Positions 16,577 to 62,833 of a stretch of 64,000 nt of DNA are shown here, piece by piece. The notes below the pieces were generated by a model that had not been told where the DNA came from, did not search any database, and saw nothing but the letters and a program-made list of their open reading frames with translations. Position numbers and translations under genes: made by a program. Source of the stretch: Terriglobia bacterium (GTDB taxonomy: Bacteria > Acidobacteriota > Terriglobia > Bryobacterales > Bryobacteraceae); the NCBI GenBank assembly GCA_020073145.1, contig JAIQFS010000024.1, forward strand, positions 1 to 64,000. The letters are read 5' to 3'. Position 1 is the first letter of the stretch, and each line of letters opens with the position of its first letter.

Positions 16577-19500
16577 TCACCACTCCACGCGTGCCAGGAT
16601 CTGGAACTGGCGTCCGGGCGTCGAGGTGTGGCTGATGACACCGGCAGACGGCACGCCCAGAATCCGGTTGGGCAATGCGAAATTCGTACGGTTGAGCAAA
16701 TTGAACGCTTCCACTCGTGTCTGCAAATGCAGCCGCTCGCTGAGCGAGAAGCGCCGGGCCATGGAAGCATCCATGGTGGCCATTCCCGGCCCGCGGAGAA
16801 TGTCGAATCCCGAATTGCCGTATTGATAGAGAGTGGGAAGCGCGAACGCGCGATTGGGATCGGCCGGGTTGAGACTGGTGTTGAACCAATGCAGGTACGA
16901 CTGCTGGCCCGCCGGCAGCGAGCCGCTCCTCAACCGGTCGGGAAGCTGATACCCGCCGTTGTTCAAGCTGTTGACCGCCAGTTGCGGCGTGAACGGAAAG
17001 CCGCTTTGCACGGTGACTACCGCGCTGGCGCGCCATCCGGCGGCGATCGCGTGGAGGACACTCGGCTTCGCTCGGGCGTGAGACTGGAAGGGCAAATCGT
17101 AGGATGCGGTCGCAATCACCCGCTGCGCGATATCGAATGGCGAAGGCGAGCGGTTGCCGCGCAAGTGGTAAATATATTCCGGCGTGGACGGGCGGCTGTC
17201 CTGGCCGGTGCCGGGCGCCGTCGCATCATCCAGCGACTTGGCGTACCGGTAGGTCAACAGAAGCTGGAGGCCGGTGACCGGCTGGCCGGCCAGCTTGGCC
17301 TGTCCGCCGTAGTACGTCGAGCCTCCGCCGTAGCCCAGGTATTCGATGCGCGAATTGTACGCCGCATAGGGATAGCGCGAAAACGCGAACGGCGTTGGCG
17401 CGGGATACGGCTGGTTGGCGTCGTAGGTATCGTAGAGATGAATTCCCATCGAGCCCATGCCGGCGATTTCCAGGGTCAGGCGCGGCCGCAGACGCTGCTG
17501 CAGAAACAAACCCCACTGGTCCGCGTATGGCGTGTAGCTCTGGGGCTCGATGGCGTAGATGGAGCCGCGGGCGCTGTTGAGACTGGCCGCGTCGAGCAAG
17601 GCCACCGCTTGGGGAGCCGGCAGGCCCGCGGTCAGATTGGGCCCCAGCTGAAACGTGCCGTTAATCATGTCGAGCCGCGAGGCATAGGGCGGATTCTGCG
17701 CGAGGATCCCCTCGGCGATGTAGGCCCCCGGGTCATACGCTTTGCTGAAACCTCCCCGCAGAACCGTCGAACCGTTCCCCCGGACATCCCAGGCAAAGCC
17801 GATGCGCGGAGCGATGGTGCGCTTGTTGTAGTTCAAGCCTCCGTACGCATTCACGCCGCCCTGGCCCGCGAACTGGTTGAGGGCCGGCAACTGCCGGTCG
17901 TAATTGAAATTCACCATGTGGTTGGAGGCTTCGGTGACCGGAGGATCCAACGAGTAGCGCAGCCCCGCCTGGATTGTGAAGTTGCGCCCCAAACGGACAT
18001 CATCCTGAACGAATCCCGCCCACTCCCAACCGCGCAAGCGGAACGGCGCAAACTGAACTTCCCGCGCGACTTCCGAGGGATAGCCCGTGAGCAGGGAGGC
18101 GATGGAATCGCCGGTGAGGCCGACACCCGGATAACTGGTGTAATCGGGCGTGAAGGAGAAATCGCCGCGGCTGGTGAATTCGGAGGCGGCGCCGTCGGCC
18201 TGCCGGCGAATGGCCTGCAGGCCGAATTGCCAGGTATGGCGCGCTGTCTTCCAGGTGACGGTGTCTTCGATCTGGTAGCTGGTGGTGCGGATCTGCAGGG
18301 GGGCCGGCTCCGCCGCGCCCAACTGGGTGTAGCCTTCCGGACTGACCACTGGCAGCCCGGCGGCGCCCAGGCCGGGGATGGCGAGCGCCGCCGCGGCGTT
18401 CACTCCCCGATCGTTGGCGTAGGCATTCAGATCGAAACGCGAGACACTGGCCCGGAAATGGTTGATCAGATCGGCGCGGACCACGAAGGTATGCGATAGG
18501 CCAACCTCCCATGCCGTCAGGTTAGTAGTGGCCGCGTCGGCATGCTGCACCGAATCGCTGCCAACAAAGCTTCCTGCGGCAAAGGGAAGCGCCGCCGGCG
18601 CCGGCAATGCGCCGGGCGATTGCGTATTGTTCCGTTGGTAACTCGCCCGCGCGTACAACGTGCTGCGGGCGGAAAGAATCTTGTCCGACCGGCCGCTCAC
18701 CCAGGCGCTGTTCTGGATCCGGTCCGGAGTGAAGCGGTAACTGTCAGCCGTGCCGGACAGGTTGGGATCCGGGTACAAAGCCATCAGGTTGCGCGCCGGC
18801 TGGAAGATCCGTGCGGCCGGCACCTGGTTGCCGGTGAAAAGCTGGCGCGCGTACACGTTGTCGCCCACTTCCGTGATCGACAGGGGATCGTAAATCGGGG
18901 TGGCCCCGAAGGCCCCAGCCTTTTGCGCCGCCGTGGGCACCGTCGACATCACCGTCAGCCCTTCGCGCCCGCGCTGCGCTTCGGCGTCCACGAAATAGAA
19001 CCAGCCATTCTTGCGAACCGCGCCGCCGGCGCTACCTCCGAACTGATTCTGCACCAGGCCCGGCTTGCTCGCGCCGTCAAAGAAATTGCGCGCATTCAAG
19101 ACTGAGTTCTGCAAGTAGTCGAAGGCGGTCCCGTGAAACCGGTCCGACCCCGAAGGAGTCTGCACGTCGATGCTGGCGCCGGCCGCATGGCCCAGGTTCG
19201 CCGGCAGGTAGACCGCGGCCAGGCTGGCGGACTCGATGGCTTCGACCGGCGGCATCAACACCGCGCCGCGCAGCCAGCTCTCGTTGTTGTCCATTCCGTC
19301 GATGAAGAAGTTGTTGTCCTGTCCCCGCTGGCCCAGGCTGTTGAAACTGGAGTTGCCACGCGGCGCATACGCCGTGTACCCTTCGATGTTGCCGCCCTCC
19401 TGGCCTCGGGTAATCTCGGAGGCATTGCGAACCTCATCCAGGTAGTTGCCGCCGGCGAGGAGCTTATCACCCACGCCCTTGGACTCCACGACCGTCCACG

Positions 19501-19849
19501 GCGCGGGTAGAGCGATCGGTAGTTCTAACTTCTGGCCGTCGCCAAGGGCCGCCGTGACGCGCGCGGAAGCGCCGGTGCGGACCGATTGCGCCATCACGGT
19601 GTAGGAACCCGCCGGAAGGCGCAGCGCCTGGTATTTTCCCAGCGAGTCCGCCACCACGTCGCGATGGAATCCGCTGCCGACTTGGATCATCGTCACGTTG
19701 GCTAACGGTGCGGGATCGCCGCCAGCCTCCACCACGGTGCCGGAAAGCTCTCCAAAGCCATCGGCGGCACGTGCGCTGGGAGACGACAGAAGAAAGCAAC
19801 AGAGGGCACACGCGAACGCGCCTGCCCGGGGCCGGACTTCAACGGTCAT
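16577..19849 (-). CDS. TonB-receptor-like (Oar-type) outer membrane protein
   Basis: A 1090-residue protein with signal peptide (about 1-28, ending PSARA). Next come a carboxypeptidase regulatory-like domain (GELSGTVVEAGGDPAPLANVT, about 33-110), a plug with GYTAYAPRGNSSFNSLGQRG and NFFIDGMDNNE (about 130-235), and a barrel with alternating aromatic strands ending ILARVEW (terminal Trp). This is the Acidobacteria form of TonB-dependent receptor related to Myxococcus Oar. No partner glycosidase or SusD-like gene is present to suggest a sugar substrate. First gene of the operon that continues into PAP2 and a second receptor. Confidence 0.87.
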   Translation of the reverse strand: MTVEVRPRAGAFACALCCFLLSSPSARAADGFGELSGTVVEAGGDPAPLANVTMIQVGSGFHRDVVADSLGKYQALRLPAGSYTVMAQSVRTGASARVTAALGDGQKLELPIALPAPWTVVESKGVGDKLLAGGNYLDEVRNASEITRGQEGGNIEGYTAYAPRGNSSFNSLGQRGQDNNFFIDGMDNNESWLRGAVLMPPVEAIESASLAAVYLPANLGHAAGASIDVQTPSGSDRFHGTAFDYLQNSVLNARNFFDGASKPGLVQNQFGGSAGGAVRKNGWFYFVDAEAQRGREGLTVMSTVPTAAQKAGAFGATPIYDPLSITEVGDNVYARQLFTGNQVPAARIFQPARNLMALYPDPNLSGTADSYRFTPDRIQNSAWVSGRSDKILSARSTLYARASYQRNNTQSPGALPAPAALPFAAGSFVGSDSVQHADAATTNLTAWEVGLSHTFVVRADLINHFRASVSRFDLNAYANDRGVNAAAALAIPGLGAAGLPVVSPEGYTQLGAAEPAPLQIRTTSYQIEDTVTWKTARHTWQFGLQAIRRQADGAASEFTSRGDFSFTPDYTSYPGVGLTGDSIASLLTGYPSEVAREVQFAPFRLRGWEWAGFVQDDVRLGRNFTIQAGLRYSLDPPVTEASNHMVNFNYDRQLPALNQFAGQGGVNAYGGLNYNKRTIAPRIGFAWDVRGNGSTVLRGGFSKAYDPGAYIAEGILAQNPPYASRLDMINGTFQLGPNLTAGLPAPQAVALLDAASLNSARGSIYAIEPQSYTPYADQWGLFLQQRLRPRLTLEIAGMGSMGIHLYDTYDANQPYPAPTPFAFSRYPYAAYNSRIEYLGYGGGSTYYGGQAKLAGQPVTGLQLLLTYRYAKSLDDATAPGTGQDSRPSTPEYIYHLRGNRSPSPFDIAQRVIATASYDLPFQSHARAKPSVLHAIAAGWRASAVVTVQSGFPFTPQLAVNSLNNGGYQLPDRLRSGSLPAGQQSYLHWFNTSLNPADPNRAFALPTLYQYGNSGFDILRGPGMATMDASMARRFSLSERLHLQTRVEAFNLLNRTNFALPNRILGVPSAGVISHTSTPGRQFQILARVEW

Positions 19850-22195: not shown

Positions 22196-23038
22196 CTACT
22201 TGCCGGGGTTGATGCCGCCTTTGATGTGGCCTTCCAGGAAATCCTTATTGTTCTCTTCGCAAGAGTATTCCATGATTTCCCAGTCCGGGCGCAGCGTGAA
22301 GATCCGCGTGTTCTTCCAGGGGCGCGTGAAGTACTTGGGATCGTTGATGGTGATTTCGTACGCGATGTGGCCGAGGTCCTTGCGCTGGAAATGTTCGACG
22401 ACGTGCAGTTGGTCGCTATGCGGGTGGCCAATGGTGTCGAGTCGCGTTTTGCCGTTGAAGTTGACAGTGTCGACCACCAGCGTGTCGCCTTCCCAGTGGC
22501 CCACGGAATCGCCGAACCAAGTCGCCACCTTATTGGCATCGTGGGCGCGGCCGTCGAGCGGGAACACCTTGAACCAGGTGTTTTGCTCGTAGAGCAGAGA
22601 CAGGTACTTGTCGCTCTGCATGATCTGGATGGGGTCGGGCGAGTTCATGGAGCGGATCAGGCCGAAGGGGAGGCAACTTCCGGTATAGTCGCCCTTGGCG
22701 GCATCATACGCTTCCCAGACGCGCTTCCCCTCGGGAGTAAACGGCAGCTCTTTGCGAGGCGGCGCGGGGGGGCCCTTGCGGCCGGCGGCCTGCTCCGGAT
22801 CGGCTTTGACGTCCGGCAGAGAGGGGTCGGCCACCTGGTCGCCATTGCGGGTGGTGACGGACATATCGGGAACGTAGGGGCGTTGCCAGAGCCCGCTGAG
22901 ATCGGGCTTGCCGTTGAGCCGGGGGGCTGGGCCTTCCGGGGGTTTGGGAGCGCGGCCCTGCCCGAGGGCGGCGCTAAACGGCACGCAGGCAAGCACGAGA
23001 ACCGCGATGCCCATCCAGGTTTTGACGTGATTCTTCAT
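22196..23038 (-). CDS. Secreted 'GKPDLSGxW' family protein of unknown function
   Basis: A 280-residue protein with signal peptide MKNHVKTWMGIAVLVLACVPFSAALG. The mature protein begins with PRLNGKPDLSGLWQRPY, then a variable Pro-rich part and a conserved C-terminal half: SLLYEQNTWFKVFPLDGR, VGHWEGDTLVVDTVNFNG, HSDQLHVVEHFQR and EITINDPKYFTRPW. The same blocks occur at 51233-52069, so these are paralogs. The family is common in Acidobacteria and unassigned to my knowledge. GAGGAG lies ten bases before the chosen ATG. Two DUF6152 genes lie directly upstream on the same strand. Confidence 0.75.
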   Translation of the reverse strand: MKNHVKTWMGIAVLVLACVPFSAALGQGRAPKPPEGPAPRLNGKPDLSGLWQRPYVPDMSVTTRNGDQVADPSLPDVKADPEQAAGRKGPPAPPRKELPFTPEGKRVWEAYDAAKGDYTGSCLPFGLIRSMNSPDPIQIMQSDKYLSLLYEQNTWFKVFPLDGRAHDANKVATWFGDSVGHWEGDTLVVDTVNFNGKTRLDTIGHPHSDQLHVVEHFQRKDLGHIAYEITINDPKYFTRPWKNTRIFTLRPDWEIMEYSCEENNKDFLEGHIKGGINPGK

Positions 23039-23142
23039 CGGTAGACTTCTCCTCAAAACGAAAGAGATCCCCGTTCCGGAGATCTCTCATCGTGCAGACA
23101 AACTACTGGCTCACCCTCGCGGTCAAGCCTTCGCAGGACCGT

Positions 23143-23565
23143 TTATTGTTTGGCGGCGCCGCGTCCCTGAGGACCATTATCTTCGGGCGAACCGGCAAAC
23201 AGGCGCTTTCCGCTGGGCAATACGACCGAGCGGGCATTGCAGGTATTGGTGGCGTCCTTGGCCATGAAACCCTCGATGGTGACCTCGTCGCCTTCCTTGA
23301 GGGATTGCTTGGTCCAGCCCTGCCGGGTCAGCGTATTGGGAGGACTCCCTTCACACTGCCACTGGACGGTCTTGCCGCTGTCATCCTTGGTCGCAATGTA
23401 CATCCAGATGTGCGGGTTCATCCAATCGACCTTGGTCACCGTGCCTTTGACGGTGACGGGTTTCTTGTCATCGAATTCCGCCGCAAACGAGTGGTGCGCA
23501 AACACCGGGGCGGCGGACACGAGCAAACCGACGCCTGCGGCCAAAACAGCTAACGTTGCTCTCAT
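23143..23565 (-). CDS. DUF6152 family exported protein
   Basis: A 140-residue protein. A signal peptide ends in APVFA, after which the mature chain would begin His24-His25-SFAAEFD. The OB-like beta core VTVKGTVTKVDWMNPHIWMYI carries the family's conserved NPH. Function is unknown. The adjacent gene at 23625 is a paralog, and both stand upstream of a GKPDLSGxW gene; gaps are 59 and about 100 bases. A mature N-terminal His together with another conserved His could bind a metal (inference). Confidence 0.82.
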   Translation of the reverse strand: MRATLAVLAAGVGLLVSAAPVFAHHSFAAEFDDKKPVTVKGTVTKVDWMNPHIWMYIATKDDSGKTVQWQCEGSPPNTLTRQGWTKQSLKEGDEVTIEGFMAKDATNTCNARSVVLPSGKRLFAGSPEDNGPQGRGAAKQ

Positions 23566-23624
23566 GGCGATCTCTCCAGTCTTAAACTCCGCAACCGATC
23601 AACCGGGAACCCGGGGAACCTGTG

Positions 23625-24035
23625 TTACTTGGCGGGGCCGCCTTCCGATTCGGGGGAACCGGCGAAGACCTTGCGCCCATCGGCCAACGTGACGCGGCGG
23701 GCATTGGCCAAGTTGGAACCATCCTTCGCCAGGTAGCCTTCGACGGTGACCTGATCCCCCTCTTTCAAGGAAGTCCGCCGCCATCCTTGGCGAATCAGCA
23801 CGTTGGGGCTGCCGAGCTCGAAATTCCAATTCGTGACCTTGCCGTTTTCGTCTTTCACATCGACGTAAAAACGAGCATGTGGGTTGGTCCACTCCACCTT
23901 GCTGACCGATCCCGATACCTTAATCGGTTTGCCCTGGTCATACTCGGCGGCGAACGAATGATGCGCCCACACCGGCACCACCGAAAGGAACAGGCCGAAG
24001 CCGGCCGCCACCACACCCAACTTTGCTTTTCTCAT
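23625..24035 (-). CDS. DUF6152 family exported protein, paralog
   Basis: A 136-residue protein, closely similar to its neighbour: signal peptide MRKAKLGVVAAGFGLFLSVVPVWA, mature start His25-His26-SFAAEYD, then IKVSGSVSKVEWTNPHARFYV and a conserved tail WRRTSLKEGDQVTVEGYLAKDG, ending ARRVTLADGRKVFAGSPE. The ATG at 24035 gives the normal signal peptide length; ATG 24047 in frame is possible. First gene of the minus-strand cluster; its leader holds two mutually exclusive hairpins (24124-24154). Confidence 0.8.
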   Translation of the reverse strand: MRKAKLGVVAAGFGLFLSVVPVWAHHSFAAEYDQGKPIKVSGSVSKVEWTNPHARFYVDVKDENGKVTNWNFELGSPNVLIRQGWRRTSLKEGDQVTVEGYLAKDGSNLANARRVTLADGRKVFAGSPESEGGPAK

Positions 24036-51232: not shown

Positions 51233-52069
51233 CTACCGGGCCCCCAAATGCGTGACGTCCTTTTCGTTTTCGGCGCAGTAGGATTCGATCAGGTCCGTGT
51301 CCGGTAGCAGACGCAGGCCGGTCTTGAAGGTAAACGGCCGCGTGAACGTCTTGGGGTCGTCGATGGTGACCTGCAGATCCATGTGGCCGAAGTCGCGCCG
51401 ATGAAAGCGCTCGGTGACGTGGAGGGCGTCACTGTGGGTGTGGCCGAAAGCATCCAGCCAGCTCCGGTCGTTGAAACCAACGGCGTCGACCACCAGGGCG
51501 TCACCCTCCCATGTGCCCACGGAGTAGCCCATCCAGGCGGGCTGCATATCTTCGGGATGCTTGCGCCCATCGGTATAGATCTGGCGGAAACTGGTGTCGG
51601 CTTCGTAGAGCAAGGCGATCGCTCCGGGCGTTTGGAGAACCTTGAAGGGAGCCGGGACCAGTTCGCCCATAGGCACTCCCAGCGGCAGACAGTGAGTCTC
51701 CGGGGACTCCTTACCCATGGCGCTGGCGTGCTGTTGGAATATTTGGGCCGCGGCCGGCCGTATAGGGGCTTCCTCGGGCTTGAAATCGGACAGAATATTG
51801 AGAAAGTACTTCGACGGGACATCTTCTCCCAGTCCGTTCGTGCCACCGGGGAGCAGCTTCCCCAGTTCCTCGAGCGGCGCGCCTTCCGCCTGCCATATTC
51901 CGGAGAGGTCCGGCTTGCCGTTGGGGGCGCGGGGCGCCGGCGCAGCCAGGTTGGGCTTGCCGTCCCGCAACCGCGGCGTTCCCGGAACCCGCTGATTCAG
52001 CCATTGCGTGTGCGCGCCCCCCGCCGCCCCCGCCACGATCACCCAACTCCAGAAAATTCGGTTTCGCAT
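51233..52069 (-). CDS. Secreted 'GKPDLSGxW' family protein, paralog
   Basis: A 278-residue protein with signal-like N-terminus (MRNRIFWSWVIVAGAAGGAH). The mature part has APNGKPDLSGIWQAEG, then ETHCLPLGVPMGELV, IALLYEADTSFRQIYTDGRK, VGTWEGDALVVDAVGFND, HSDALHVTERFHRRDFGHMD and TIDDPKTFTRPF, closely matching the gene at 22196-23038. Function unknown. Unlike the other two loci, no DUF6152 gene is adjacent; a NUDIX gene follows. Confidence 0.75.
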   Translation of the reverse strand: MRNRIFWSWVIVAGAAGGAHTQWLNQRVPGTPRLRDGKPNLAAPAPRAPNGKPDLSGIWQAEGAPLEELGKLLPGGTNGLGEDVPSKYFLNILSDFKPEEAPIRPAAAQIFQQHASAMGKESPETHCLPLGVPMGELVPAPFKVLQTPGAIALLYEADTSFRQIYTDGRKHPEDMQPAWMGYSVGTWEGDALVVDAVGFNDRSWLDAFGHTHSDALHVTERFHRRDFGHMDLQVTIDDPKTFTRPFTFKTGLRLLPDTDLIESYCAENEKDVTHLGAR

Positions 52070-52138
52070 CGCTCACCCTTCCCTGTGGACCTGCCGTGTG
52101 GTTAGTATACGCAAGAAACGGCCGGCGATTGGGGCCGG

Positions 52139-59538: not shown

Positions 59539-59910
59539 ATGCCCGACCGGCGTCTCGCCCGGCTCTCCAGGATCTGCCTCTCGCTGCCGGAGGCGGTCCG
59601 CGAGGACAAGGGGCAGCACGCCGCCTTCCTGGTTCGCAAAAAGATCTTCTCCTATTACCTCAACGACCACCACGGAGATGGCATCGTCTCCGTGGCATGC
59701 AAGGCCCTGCCAGGCGAGAACGCAGCGCTCGCGGCCGCGCAGCCCGCGCGCTTCTACCTGCCGCCCTACATCGGACCGAGAGGATGGATCGCGCTCCGCC
59801 TCGACCGGGGAGCGGTGGACTGGGAAGAGGTGGCGGAGCTGGTGACGGGAAGCTACCGGTTGACCGCTCCGAGGAGTCTGAGCGCGAGTGTTCGGCTCCG
59901 GGCCGGCTGA
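59539..59910 (+). CDS. MmcQ/YjbR family protein
   Basis: A 123-residue cytoplasmic protein of the MmcQ/YjbR (CyaY-like fold) family: RLSRICLSLPEAVREDKG, AAFLVRKKIFSYYLNDH, VSVACKALPGENAAL, RFYLPPYIGPRGWIALRLD and VDWEEVAELVTGSYRLTAP. The family is often called DNA-binding from its fold; the function is not certain. I chose the ATG at 59539; an earlier in-frame start at 59512 gives a nine-residue extension not typical of the family. Confidence 0.8.
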   Translation: MPDRRLARLSRICLSLPEAVREDKGQHAAFLVRKKIFSYYLNDHHGDGIVSVACKALPGENAALAAAQPARFYLPPYIGPRGWIALRLDRGAVDWEEVAELVTGSYRLTAPRSLSASVRLRAG

Positions 59911-59977
59911 GCCCGGCGGAAGTTGCCAGCCTCGGGCTCATCGTACAATGAGGGGTTCTCCCCGTGGGAGTGATCCT

Positions 59978-60949
59978 TTGAGTTTGACGCATCTCCATCT
60001 CTTGCTGAACCACTTTCCGGTCATCGGCACGATCATCGCGCTTTTCTTGTTGATGGTCGCGGTGGCGGCGAAGAGCGACGACCTCAAGCGCGCCAGCCTC
60101 GCCATTTTCCTGGGAATCGCGCTGCTGACCATTCCTACGTATTTGACCGGCAATGCCGCGGAGGAAGGGATCTGCAAGGCGGACATCGCCGCCCCCTGCC
60201 CGGAGCCTGGCGTGTCCAAGGCTCTCATCGACGCGCACGAAAGCGCGGCGCTGGTGGCGTTCGGCTTCATGGAACTCACCGGCGCTTTCGCCTGGCTGGG
60301 GCTGTGGCAGTTTCGGCGAACGTCCCGCCTGTCGCGCGGGACCTTGGCTACGGTTCTGCTGCTCTCGCTGGTGACGTTCGGCCTGATGGCCCGAGTTTCC
60401 AACCTAGGTGGAGAGATTCGCCATCCCGAGATTCGCTCCGATCTCACCGCACCGGCAACCCGGTCTGCGGAAAAACCGTTGGCCCGCCACATCGGCGAAC
60501 TCGTCCAAGGAGGCCTCGGGTGGATCTGGCCCACCTGCGAGACCCTGCATTTCATCGGGCTGTGTCTCCTGTTCGGGGTGACCGCCGTGGTGGATCTGCG
60601 CATGTTGGGCCTCATGAAGGGAGTGCCATTTTCCGGCTTGCACCGGCTGCTGCCGTGGGGGATTCTGGGGTTCGGCGTCAACCTGATCACCGGCATGTTG
60701 TTCTTTGTCGCGGCTCCCATCGGCAACGGAGGCTACGTTTCCAACCCCACGTTCGCGTGGAAGATGCTGCTCATCCTGCTGGCCGGCGTCAACGTTCTGT
60801 ATTTCACGATCTTCGACCAGCCGTGGGAGGTGCAGGCCGGAGACGACGCGCCCCTGACCGCCAAAGTCTTCGCCGGCGCTGCCCTTTGCCTGGTGGTCGG
60901 TATTATTTTCTGCGGCCGCATGCTGCCCTTCCTGGGGAATTCCTTCTGA
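59978..60949 (+). CDS. Integral membrane protein, DUF2231-like N-half and DUF6644-like C-half
   Basis: A 323-residue polytopic protein. The N-half (LTHLHLLLNHFPVIGTIIAL, AALVAFGFMELTGAFAWLG) resembles DUF2231-type membrane proteins with conserved His. The C-half (WPTCETLHFIGLCLLFG, VTAVVDLRMLGLMKGVPFSG, WGILGFGVNLITGMLFF) resembles the protein encoded two genes downstream (61068-61580). About eight helices, with paired His that could hold haem (inference). TTG 59978 is favoured by GGGAG seven bases ahead; ATG 59948 would add ten residues. Confidence 0.72.
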   Translation: MSLTHLHLLLNHFPVIGTIIALFLLMVAVAAKSDDLKRASLAIFLGIALLTIPTYLTGNAAEEGICKADIAAPCPEPGVSKALIDAHESAALVAFGFMELTGAFAWLGLWQFRRTSRLSRGTLATVLLLSLVTFGLMARVSNLGGEIRHPEIRSDLTAPATRSAEKPLARHIGELVQGGLGWIWPTCETLHFIGLCLLFGVTAVVDLRMLGLMKGVPFSGLHRLLPWGILGFGVNLITGMLFFVAAPIGNGGYVSNPTFAWKMLLILLAGVNVLYFTIFDQPWEVQAGDDAPLTAKVFAGAALCLVVGIIFCGRMLPFLGNSF

Positions 60950-61071
60950 TGCCCCTGGCTCTCAGCGTCAGCCTCCTGGTGGTGCTGGTCGTGGTCCTGA
61001 TGGGAGTGGCCGGTTATCTCATCGACAAAAGCGCGGAGCCCGACCACCGCAAACAGGACACCACCCGATGA
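60949..61071 (+). CDS. 40-residue single-span membrane protein
   Basis: MPLALSVSLLVVLVVVLMGV followed by AGYLIDKSAEPDHRKQDTTR: one long hydrophobic helix and a charged tail. The ATG overlaps the preceding stop (TGATG), and its own stop overlaps the next start (ATGATGG), so it is translationally coupled on both sides. Such small proteins often steady a membrane complex; function unknown. Confidence 0.62.
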   Translation: MPLALSVSLLVVLVVVLMGVAGYLIDKSAEPDHRKQDTTR

Positions 61072-61580
61072 TGGAATTTCTTGCCGCTCTCGAGCACTCG
61101 CGGTTCAGCCAATGGGTCCTGGCATCGGGCTCCATCTTTGCCTATCCCAGCATTCTCTTCATGCACACCATCGGCATGGCGATGGTGGCGGGGATCAGCG
61201 CTGTGATCGACCTTCGGCTGCTAGGCCTCTCGCCCAAGCTTCCGATCAAGCCGCTGGAACGGCTCTATCCGCTGATGTGGGTGGGCTTCGCCATCAACCT
61301 GCTGACCGGCTCGACCCTCATGATCGCGGATGCCACTACCAAGCTCACCAATCCGGATTTCTACGTGAAGATGATCTTCGTTTTTTCCGGAGTGGCCATT
61401 CTGTACGTGATGCAGAGCCGGGTTTTCGGCGATCCGGAACTCGATCGGGCGCCCGTTTCGAGCCGCGCCAAAAGCCTGGCTTGGATCTCGCTGGTCTGCT
61501 GGGTGGGGGCGGTCACCTGCGGCCGTTTGTTGGCGTATGTAGGACCGGTCTCCGGCCTGACGGGCCTAAAAAGCCACTGA
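61068..61580 (+). CDS. DUF6644-like integral membrane protein
   Basis: A 170-residue protein with four to five helices. FAYPSILFMHTIGMAMVAGI, SAVIDLRLLGLSPKLPIKPLE and MWVGFAINLLTGSTLMIADA match the C-half of the protein at 59978-60949 (LHFIGLCLLFG, VVDLRMLGL, GFGVNLITG). It overlaps the 40-residue gene by four bases. The three likely form one complex; a redox or haem role is possible from the conserved His but not shown. Confidence 0.72.
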   Translation: MMEFLAALEHSRFSQWVLASGSIFAYPSILFMHTIGMAMVAGISAVIDLRLLGLSPKLPIKPLERLYPLMWVGFAINLLTGSTLMIADATTKLTNPDFYVKMIFVFSGVAILYVMQSRVFGDPELDRAPVSSRAKSLAWISLVCWVGAVTCGRLLAYVGPVSGLTGLKSH

Positions 61581-61595: not shown

Positions 61596-62387
61596 TTACC
61601 GCGCGTCGCAGGGTGTCGGATTCCACCCCGCGGCATCGGCCTGTTTCTTGAAGTGGGTGCTGGTGATGAAAGGCTGAGCCAGGTACTCCGGATCCTCCAC
61701 AATGGTGGTCACAATCAGGTAGGAGTTTCCGTCGGGTTCCATCGTGCGATCCAAGTACTCCGTCACCGTGGCCTTCTCGCTATAAGGGACACCGTTCTTG
61801 CGCAGGTAACCCGCCCGCATGTGCGTGGTGACGGCCTTGAGCGAACCTCCCTGCGGGGGAGCGCCGCGGCCTCCCCGGCCGCCGCCCGCCACTTCCCATT
61901 GCGCGGCGGAATATCCCTGCCAGGTGGGTTCTCCGGAAGCTTGGGCCGTTCCGAAGTGGAAGAGGCGCGTCTGGGTGCCGGCATCGGTGTCGACGCGCAG
62001 GGTGTTTTCATCGGACCAGGTGATGTGCAAGCGGGTGGGGATGCGCATGATCCCGCCGGCGCCGTACGCCTTGCACTGATTGCCGGCCGCCTCGTCTTTA
62101 GCGGGGTCCCACTCGTTGGCGAGCTTGCGGCCTTCCTGGTTCAGGGGAACGCTGGCGACGTCGCCCTTGGGGGCTGTCACCATGCGCCACCGCCAATCTT
62201 CGGTCACCAGAGCCACCCAATAGCCCGTCAAATCGAGGGGAGCGGAGGCCTGGGGAGATCGCGGAGGACCCGGGGGCCCGCCGCGGCCGCCGCGGCCTTG
62301 GGCGTGGATGGAACCGGGCGCCGCCACCGCCAGCGCCGCCGCTACCCAGACCGCCGCGCCGTGCCTCCGTAGGAACCGACAATTCAT
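61596..62387 (-). CDS. Secreted protein, divergent GKPDLSGxW-like
   Basis: A 263-residue protein with signal peptide (AAVWVAAALAVAAPGSIHAQ) and a Gly/Pro-rich linker (GRGGRGGPPGPPRSP). The mature core DLTGYWVALVTEDWRWRMVT, RLHITWSDENTLRVDTDAGT and VTTIVEDPEYLAQPFITSTH keeps the pattern of the paralogs at 22196 and 51233 (LSG-W start, WxGxxL middle, DPxxxxxPF end) but is diverged. Function unknown. It follows a DUF6152 gene by 59 bases, as in the 22-24 kb cluster. Confidence 0.72.
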   Translation of the reverse strand: MNCRFLRRHGAAVWVAAALAVAAPGSIHAQGRGGRGGPPGPPRSPQASAPLDLTGYWVALVTEDWRWRMVTAPKGDVASVPLNQEGRKLANEWDPAKDEAAGNQCKAYGAGGIMRIPTRLHITWSDENTLRVDTDAGTQTRLFHFGTAQASGEPTWQGYSAAQWEVAGGGRGGRGAPPQGGSLKAVTTHMRAGYLRKNGVPYSEKATVTEYLDRTMEPDGNSYLIVTTIVEDPEYLAQPFITSTHFKKQADAAGWNPTPCDAR

Positions 62388-62446
62388 CCCTGCCCCTCCA
62401 CCGCCCGGAACACCGATCCCGGGCCGGGTCAAATCAAGAGAACTGG

Positions 62447-62833
62447 CTACTCGAACGTGCCGCCCCACTTCCATCCGTCGGAGGGCCGGGTGATATTGAC
62501 CATCCGCAGCCGGTGATCGTCCGGATTCCGTCCGGGATTCCCGACCACGATCACGTGGTCACCCGGCTTGAGGGTCTCGCGGGTCACGCCCTGCCGGCCG
62601 AGCTGGCCGCCAGCGCCCCATTCCACCGCCCAGCGGGTCATGGTTCCATCCGGTTCCTTGACTTCCACGTGCACGAACGAATGCGGGTTGCGATACAGAA
62701 ACTGAACCAGGTCGCCTTCGACCGTTACTTTCTTATCTTCGAAATAGGTCGCGGCAAAGGAGTGGTGGGCGTAGGCTCGAACGCCAAGGAAGGTCACCCC
62801 GGCAAAGAGCAAAACCAGTAATTTGCTTTTCAT
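62447..62833 (-). CDS. DUF6152 family exported protein, third copy
   Basis: A 128-residue protein: signal peptide MKSKLLVLLFAGVTFLGVRAYA, mature start His23-His24-SFAATYFEDKK, then VTVEGDLVQFLYRNPHSFVHV with the conserved NPH and KPGDHVIVVGNPGRNPDDHR. AGGAG lies eight bases before the ATG. Same order as in the 22-24 kb cluster, with a GKPDLSGxW-like gene downstream. Confidence 0.82.
   Translation of the reverse strand: MKSKLLVLLFAGVTFLGVRAYAHHSFAATYFEDKKVTVEGDLVQFLYRNPHSFVHVEVKEPDGTMTRWAVEWGAGGQLGRQGVTRETLKPGDHVIVVGNPGRNPDDHRLRMVNITRPSDGWKWGGTFE

Follow-up and report, generated by a model that had tools for sequence, protein, structure and literature searches.

Introduction

The copper histidine brace of CopC and of lytic polysaccharide monooxygenases (LPMOs) is used here as defined in the available part of PMC10952591. 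More recently, DUF4198, DUF6702 and two 'anglerase' families (Ang-1 and Ang-2) have been described as binding Ni, Cu or Co with an N-terminal His, which is present in 79% of DUF4198 and 65% of DUF6702 sequences according to the portion of PMC12537917 consulted; within that portion of its main text, no DUF6152, oligonucleotide/oligosaccharide-binding (OB) folds or Acidobacteria were found. In this work, we analysed a window of 64,000 nucleotides, the whole stretch of contig JAIQFS010000024.1 under study, which harbours three genes for DUF6152 proteins (PF19649, hereafter D) with a predicted mature N-terminus of His-His, genes for secreted proteins of a GKPDLSGxW family (hereafter G) and genes for membrane proteins resembling DUF6644 (PF20349, hereafter M). 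Computational analysis reveals a three-part association of D, G and M.

DUF6152/PF19649, DUF6644/PF20349 and GKPDLSG are not mentioned in the literature that we searched, which excluded most subscription journals and all bioRxiv preprints. DUF2214 is mentioned there in two papers. A previous reading of the window, made from the sequence only, knew of no described function for either D or G. The combination of an OB fold, an N-terminal histidine and copper binding was not found in the same literature either.

D, G and M genes in the window

The genes of interest are the following, with slashes marking predicted cleavage sites and E denoting E-values.

23625-24035, minus strand: D1, DUF6152 (PF19649) protein, Pfam E 8.7e-34, 116 bits; PVWA/HHSFAA, NPH in the core; predicted signal peptide 23964-24035, predicted mature protein HHSFAAEYD... 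from 23963 down
23143-23565, minus strand: D2, DUF6152 (PF19649) protein, Pfam E 6e-32, 110.1 bits; PVFA/HHSFAA, NPH in the core; predicted signal peptide 23497-23565, predicted mature protein HHSFAAEFD... from 23496 down
22196-23038, minus strand: G1, secreted GKPDLSGLW-family protein, last in the same-strand row D1-D2-G1; leave-out G profile E 9.2e-92
62447-62833, minus strand: D3, DUF6152 (PF19649) protein, Pfam E 4e-26, 91.4 bits; AYA/HHSFAA, NPH in the core; predicted mature protein HHSFAATYF... from 62767 down
61596-62474, minus strand: G2, divergent member of the G family (APLDLTGYW), immediately following D3, whose end it overlaps; leave-out G profile E 4.7e-25
51236-52072, minus strand: G3, further G-family frame, family match 51242-52015; leave-out G profile E 1.2e-94
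61068-61580, plus strand: M1, DUF6644-like membrane protein adjoining G2 and D3; independent M profile E 7.8e-36
59888-60949, plus strand: M2, larger membrane protein, DUF2231-like in its N-terminal part and M-type in its C-terminal part; independent M profile E 6e-36

All three D proteins exceed the curated PF19649 cut-off (27 bits). Their signal sequences are basic and hydrophobic, with a small residue immediately before HHSFAA, and each has NPH in its core, as the sequence-only reading had described. That reading also placed a GKPDLSGxW protein on the same strand in two of the three loci. The link stands and the count has to be corrected, as G2 makes it three of three. Besides this further G neighbour, the analysis added two things that had not been noticed before: the DUF6644-like membrane proteins, which come as a pair, and a large paralogous expansion.

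G1 and G2 have no Pfam or NCBIfam match (E<=1); they and G3 were scored with a G profile from which all rows of the window and of loci L035 and L036 had been removed. A D profile scan of the window found no D near G3. The independent M profile comprises 8 sequences, all from other genomes. In Pfam, M1 matches DUF6644 (E 0.0011, 19.5 bits, below the 27-bit cut-off) and M2 has sub-cut-off matches to DUF2214 (E 2.4e-6) and DUF2231 (E 0.0015). A nearly identical copy of D3 is found on another contig (C63; L035:4938-5255), with its own adjacent divergent G, and the two stem from a recent duplication.

D and G form one module

That D and G belong to one module, as first proposed for this window, is strongly supported by their adjacency, their fusions and their near-identical genome distribution. 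In the window's genome, 36 of the 49 D genes have a same-strand G no more than 1 kb away, while the upper-bound expectation from G density is 2.9%; the suspected neighbour link thus goes beyond chance. Forty stretches around D matches in ten other genomes contain 77 D, with a same-strand G within 1.5 kb for 55 of them, a fusion to G for six and neither for 16. Eleven distinct D-G fusion frames were identified in acidobacterial and proteobacterial genomes, and a twelfth was also seen. D is the N-terminal part in 11/11 of the distinct frames, and in ten of them HH follows the signal peptide.

The two partners also vary together. Among the 37 adjacent pairs of the window's genome, pairwise identities of D correlate with those of G (r=0.688, a value reached in 0/2000 permutations), and over all loci the correlation is similar (r=0.683, 167 pairs). 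G is more variable, with a mean identity of 30% compared with 41% for D. The correlation indicates that the pairs duplicate and diverge as units.

As for genome distribution, D and G occupy the same 22 of 41 genomes in a sample of the order, including genomes with one D and one G, and by genus both are found in 7/21. In a sample of the phylum, they are present in the same 12 of 149 genomes, with one additional genome, 75% complete, that has G only. The genomes are related, and these co-distribution figures are not to be read as probabilities. G counts are in general lower bounds, being taken from the best 69 matches per genome in the order sample and the best 19 in the phylum sample.

A pair of membrane proteins shares the distribution of D and G

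Where a genome has few D, a tandem pair of genes for membrane proteins of approximately 160 residues, of the DUF6644/DUF2214 kind, is among the neighbours of D. Such M genes lie within 3 kb of 9 of the 14 D in stretches from these genomes, and M relatives beside D in other genomes attain the 27-bit cut-off of DUF6644. The M pair follows the distribution of D and G, and it is a component new to this analysis. In the order sample, DUF6644 exceeds its cut-off in 21 of the 22 genomes that have D, and it was not found in the 19 D-negative ones; in the remaining D-positive genome (G172), the D-G fusion is immediately followed by two M genes. Across the phylum sample, exactly the 12 D-positive genomes of 149 have DUF6644 above the cut-off, with two weaker matches elsewhere. 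Eleven named genomes were searched for DUF6644, and nine have it. All 45 M proteins lie within 3 kb of D or G, partly by construction since the loci were fetched around D.

An alignment of 30 M rows, comprising two repeats, shows invariant His, Lys, Trp and Arg residues. A CopD identity of M is not supported: at E<=1, M1 and M2 match DUF6644, DUF2214 and DUF2231 but not CopD, and CopD (PF05425) exceeds its cut-off in 0/21 order genomes.

Paralogous expansion of D and G

The window's genome (6.32 Mb) contains 49 DUF6152 matches, every one over the cut-off, and at least 136 matches to G1 (150 of 168 candidates scored), which merge into at least about 127 G loci. Four genomes of one genus harbour 46, 21, 73 and 57 D. 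The remaining D-positive genomes of the order have 1 to 5 D each, and many members of the same family have none. D copies were also counted in twelve further named genomes with D. Counts outside the order include 57 D in a Rhodospirillaceae metagenome-assembled genome (MAG) of 2.3 Mb, 56 in a UBA6522 proteobacterial MAG of 2.1 Mb and 68 in a gammaproteobacterial MAG of 3.9 Mb, as well as two in a Verrucomicrobia MAG and one in a Planctomycetota MAG. The MAGs of 2.3 and 2.1 Mb have dozens of D, yet only two M each, in tandem, which suggests that many D-G pairs share one membrane partner. A D that is 75% identical to an acidobacterial query was also found in a MAG record titled Bordetella parapertussis (L061, CALQCC020000004.1), probably a misnamed bin.

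Signal peptides and conserved histidines of D

The sequence-only reading held that cleavage would expose an N-terminal His. We examined 243 D homologues, a number in which L100 counts twice because of a domain split. The -3/-1 rule is satisfied directly before HH in 236 of them, and 177 have a Pro at position -4 relative to that site. The spacing from the hydrophobic core to HH is mostly 4-12 residues, as in 12 Escherichia coli signal peptides. A start codon is present 15-45 codons upstream of HH in 241 homologues, the other two being one cut by the locus edge and one with a nearer ATG. D was never seen behind another domain, neither among the 243 homologues nor among the distinct fusion frames. 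An alternative site five residues further on (the +5 site, HHSFA/A) satisfies the -3/-1 rule in 195/243; all 48 homologues that break the rule there retain the HH site. The original claim fits the -3/-1 rule and is opposed by a weight matrix, discussed below. We give the comparison of homologues more weight because a cleavage site must be usable in all of them, and we infer that cleavage takes place exactly before HH.

Counting the three histidines across the family bore out the expected retention of HH and NPH. In the window's genome, 47 of the 49 D have HH behind the signal sequence as well as NPH. A profile built with HH and NPH in it retrieved 145 distinct D domains. H1, H2 and H29 (the NPH His) are all present in 141 of these, and H29 in 142. 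These domains come from the window's genome and from loci of other genomes fetched around mostly high-scoring matches; at least 80 named loci found by patterns containing HHSFAAE or NPH were excluded from them. As judged from the aligned sequences, HH and NPH are near-invariant features of DUF6152. The four exceptions are two copies cut by locus ends or unread bases, a distant lipoprotein-like relative (L048) and one D-G fusion (L038:5362-6408, minus strand, also in L030). In this fusion, HH is replaced by DR and NPH by NPR, and an intact D is found about 1 kb further on the same strand. No assessable domain among the 145 has HH without the NPH His, or the reverse. A shared site for the N-terminus and NPH would lead one to expect such joint loss, of which the fusion is the single clear case.

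In a mean-field coupling analysis of D, the top couplings fit the pairing of strands beta2-beta3, beta3-beta5 and beta4-beta5. Couplings of H1 or H2 with H29 rest on few joint losses and, without those rows, on invariant columns, which makes them an artefact. Of 25 subsamples, no more than 13 rank the coupling of S3 with N47 among the top 100, and no more than 12 that of S3 with A88.

Fold models

The AlphaFold2 model of D (121 mature sequences; mean predicted local distance difference test score, pLDDT, 86.0; predicted template-modelling score, pTM, 0.77) is a five-stranded barrel with the order beta1-beta2-beta3-alpha-beta4-beta5, in which NPH comes directly behind strand 1. Its neighbours in Foldseek and VIA-align are the OB folds Rim1, SSB and PriB (Z 10.3, root-mean-square deviation (rmsd) 2.2, 81 residues), and the model thus identifies D as an OB fold. 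Although single-stranded-DNA-binding proteins head this list, we dismissed a role of D in DNA binding, as the fold alone is in common and D is secreted. Weak Pfam matches of D to OB nucleic-acid-binding families were likewise treated as an echo of the fold only. CusF and CopC are not in the fold lists, an absence that does not exclude either. Sequence searches of the PDB gave no significant relative of D (best E 1.5 with a single sequence and 0.65 with a profile).

G was modelled from 110 sequences over 254 residues (pLDDT 92.7, pTM 0.89). The neighbours of the model are fatty-acid- and retinoid-binding barrels, with CRABP2 at Z 10.2, rmsd 4.3 over 125 residues in VIA; G is thus likely, though not certainly, a calycin-like barrel. 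Two Cys residues are near-invariant, C96 in 109/110 rows and C234 in 107/110. No significant PDB sequence relative of G was found (single sequence, best E 0.1; profile, none at E<=1).

Other genes in the neighbourhood

The neighbour tallies rest on simple gene calling, on the first 25 families listed and on small numbers. With these bounds, pyrroloquinoline quinone (PQQ) dehydrogenase domains, TonB_dep_Rec and DUF6644 were each found in 5 of 127 proteins near D-G and in at most 2 of 128 far from it. A second set of 115 neighbours contains OMP_b-brl_4 in seven, TonB_dep_Rec in six and a reaction-centre-type cytochrome c in seven. In the window itself, an Oar/TonB-type outer-membrane receptor (16577-19849, minus strand; OMP_b-brl_4 E 6.7e-194) is encoded a few kb from the D-D-G row.

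No single recurring enzyme was found among ten plus ten neighbours viewed one by one. They include an M13 peptidase, an amidase, amidohydrolases, a GDSL lipase, a beta-lactamase-like protein and ankyrin-cytochrome c proteins, among others. The M13 protease gene adjoins D-G at L222, one of the loci annotated individually. Proteins with ankyrin repeats and cytochrome c domains are encoded beside D-G in Verrucomicrobia (L226:201-2459, plus strand) and in an acidobacterial genome (L230:3644-6478, minus strand); both contain stretches matching squalene-hopene cyclase.

Proposed mechanism and alternatives

We tentatively favour, with somewhat less than even confidence, an envelope module in which D-G pairs, each specific for a ligand, carry a metal site at an N-terminal His and share a membrane partner. 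D would be a secreted OB-fold metalloprotein, cut by signal peptidase before His-His. A transition metal might be held by the N-terminal amine and side chain of His1, together with His2, and by the NPH His; by analogy it would most likely be copper, in a histidine-brace-like site. G would be the secreted partner, its calycin-like barrel holding a small, probably hydrophobic ligand. One D would pair with one adjacent or fused G, and diverged D-G pairs would serve different ligands, which they would bind and oxidise or otherwise process in the periplasm. Their common partner would be M, present as a tandem pair in the inner membrane, which would exchange electrons (or metal) with them.

We infer metal binding, the identity of the metal, its redox use and the role of M. 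The metal claim for D appears plausible, its best support being the joint conservation of the three His and their one joint loss. Copy numbers of 20-70 D suit components dedicated to individual substrates better than a general role in metal homeostasis, and for this reason we favour a metal site that acts on, or with, a ligand held by G. The recurrent neighbours (PQQ, TonB-type, cytochromes) fit the mechanism loosely. It is tempting to speculate on an undescribed envelope redox system in which diversified D-G pairs oxidise or activate different small molecules, all plugging into one DUF6644-type membrane pair, a scenario that we deem possible and rather unlikely. Such a system would be a modular small-molecule counterpart of the LPMOs that act on polysaccharides, a parallel that we regard with similar doubt.

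Several observations weigh against the module as we picture it. The 16 D of 77 without G within 1.5 kb on their own strand stand apart from the pairing scheme, and G outnumbers D in the window's genome (about 127 to 49), with many G acting without a neighbouring D. Joint duplication without contact could also give paired divergence. The fold matches of G are middling, the best Foldseek E being 1.9e-3 and none reaching 0.001. The coupling analysis places the N-terminus of D weakly. M has no significant PDB sequence relative (profile, best E 0.6) and its role is a guess; no DUF6644 match was found in the Verrucomicrobia and Planctomycetota MAGs with two and one D (G194 and G195). Finally, enrichment of redox neighbours is mild, with Cytochrome_CBB3 in 5/127 near proteins and 3/128 far ones.

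Metal capture is an alternative to which we give a minor share of belief. D would be a periplasmic metal binder or donor, like CopC, DUF4198, DUF6702 or the 'anglerases', G would bind a metallophore or other ligand, and M would transport the metal across the inner membrane, with no enzyme activity involved. The N-terminal-His proteins DUF4198 and DUF6702 are indeed reported, in the consulted portion of PMC12537917, to bind Ni or Cu while showing weak enzyme activity or none; TonB- or Oar-type receptors recur near D, and M has an invariant His. However, the uptake of one metal can hardly explain 21-73 D in five related expanded genomes or 56-57 in MAGs of 2.1-2.3 Mb. Two MAGs with many D keep a single M pair, and the lack of CopD over the cut-off in the 21 order genomes also speaks against capture.

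Somewhat less probable still is cleavage at the later site (HHSFA/A). HH would then be the conserved end of the signal peptide, NPH a structural motif of the OB fold and D a non-metal accessory protein or chaperone for G. Of 241 homologues, a weight matrix gives first rank to the +5 site in 142 and to the HH site in 46, which also counts against the favoured reading; this matrix is crude, being our own build trained on only the 12 E. coli signal peptides. The +5 site moreover fits the -3/-1 rule in most homologues, but the HH site does so in more, including all those in which the +5 site fails. Why a signal peptide should retain HH throughout the assessable members is not evident, and the single clear member without HH or the NPH His has lost both.

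In a last reading, which we consider very improbable, D would inhibit or dock onto another enzyme and chelate its metal with the N-terminal HH, in the manner of the N-termini of OB-fold protease inhibitors (TIMPs, potempins). In its favour, D is a small secreted OB fold with a putative chelating N-terminus. Against it, the conserved, fused and co-distributed partner of D is G, which has no metalloprotease profile match; an M13 protease gene was seen beside D-G at one individually annotated locus (L222). The NPH His would be left unexplained.

If the favoured reading holds, D, G and M would make up a three-component system whose secreted paralogues form one of the largest such sets in some uncultured bacteria from soil and other environments. 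It would offer a joint, testable role for three families without known function, with single-copy genomes as a simple place for tests. Even should the metal part fail, the near-perfect three-way co-distribution can guide annotation.

Comparison with known systems

D resembles CusF in being small, in its modelled OB fold and in its proposed metal binding. CusF is a small periplasmic OB-fold copper protein whose Met/Trp/His site lies on the barrel and does not use the N-terminus. CusF was not among the matches of D in the Pfam scan or the PDB sequence search, neither of which is a residue-by-residue search for the site. As for G, its model aligns with CRABP2 and fatty-acid-binding proteins, as expected of calycins, but G is longer, has two near-invariant Cys and lacks a sequence match to them.

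Like CopC and the LPMOs, D has a predicted N-terminal His and a conserved internal His. Unlike them, it has a predicted OB-type fold and a second residue that is also His, and the three D proteins of the window match no CopC or LPMO family in Pfam or NCBIfam at E<=1. The arrangement of a secreted protein with a predicted N-terminal His beside a multi-helix membrane protein with a conserved His is reminiscent of CopC-CopD, except that M matches DUF6644/DUF2214 and not CopD.

The families described in PMC12537917, as far as the consulted portion goes, come closest. Like DUF4198, DUF6702, Ang-1 and Ang-2, D is secreted and has a predicted mature N-terminal His and a further conserved His, and TonB receptors are among the neighbours of DUF4198 and D alike. 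The folds differ, with a beta-sandwich in those families and an OB fold in the model of D. If it does bind metal, DUF6152 would represent a new fold class of N-terminal-His metalloproteins, with a stricter signature than DUF4198 or DUF6702: all three His are kept in 141/145 D domains, compared with an N-terminal His in 79% and 65% of those two families. Unlike all of them, D is accompanied by G and M and is present in dozens of copies.

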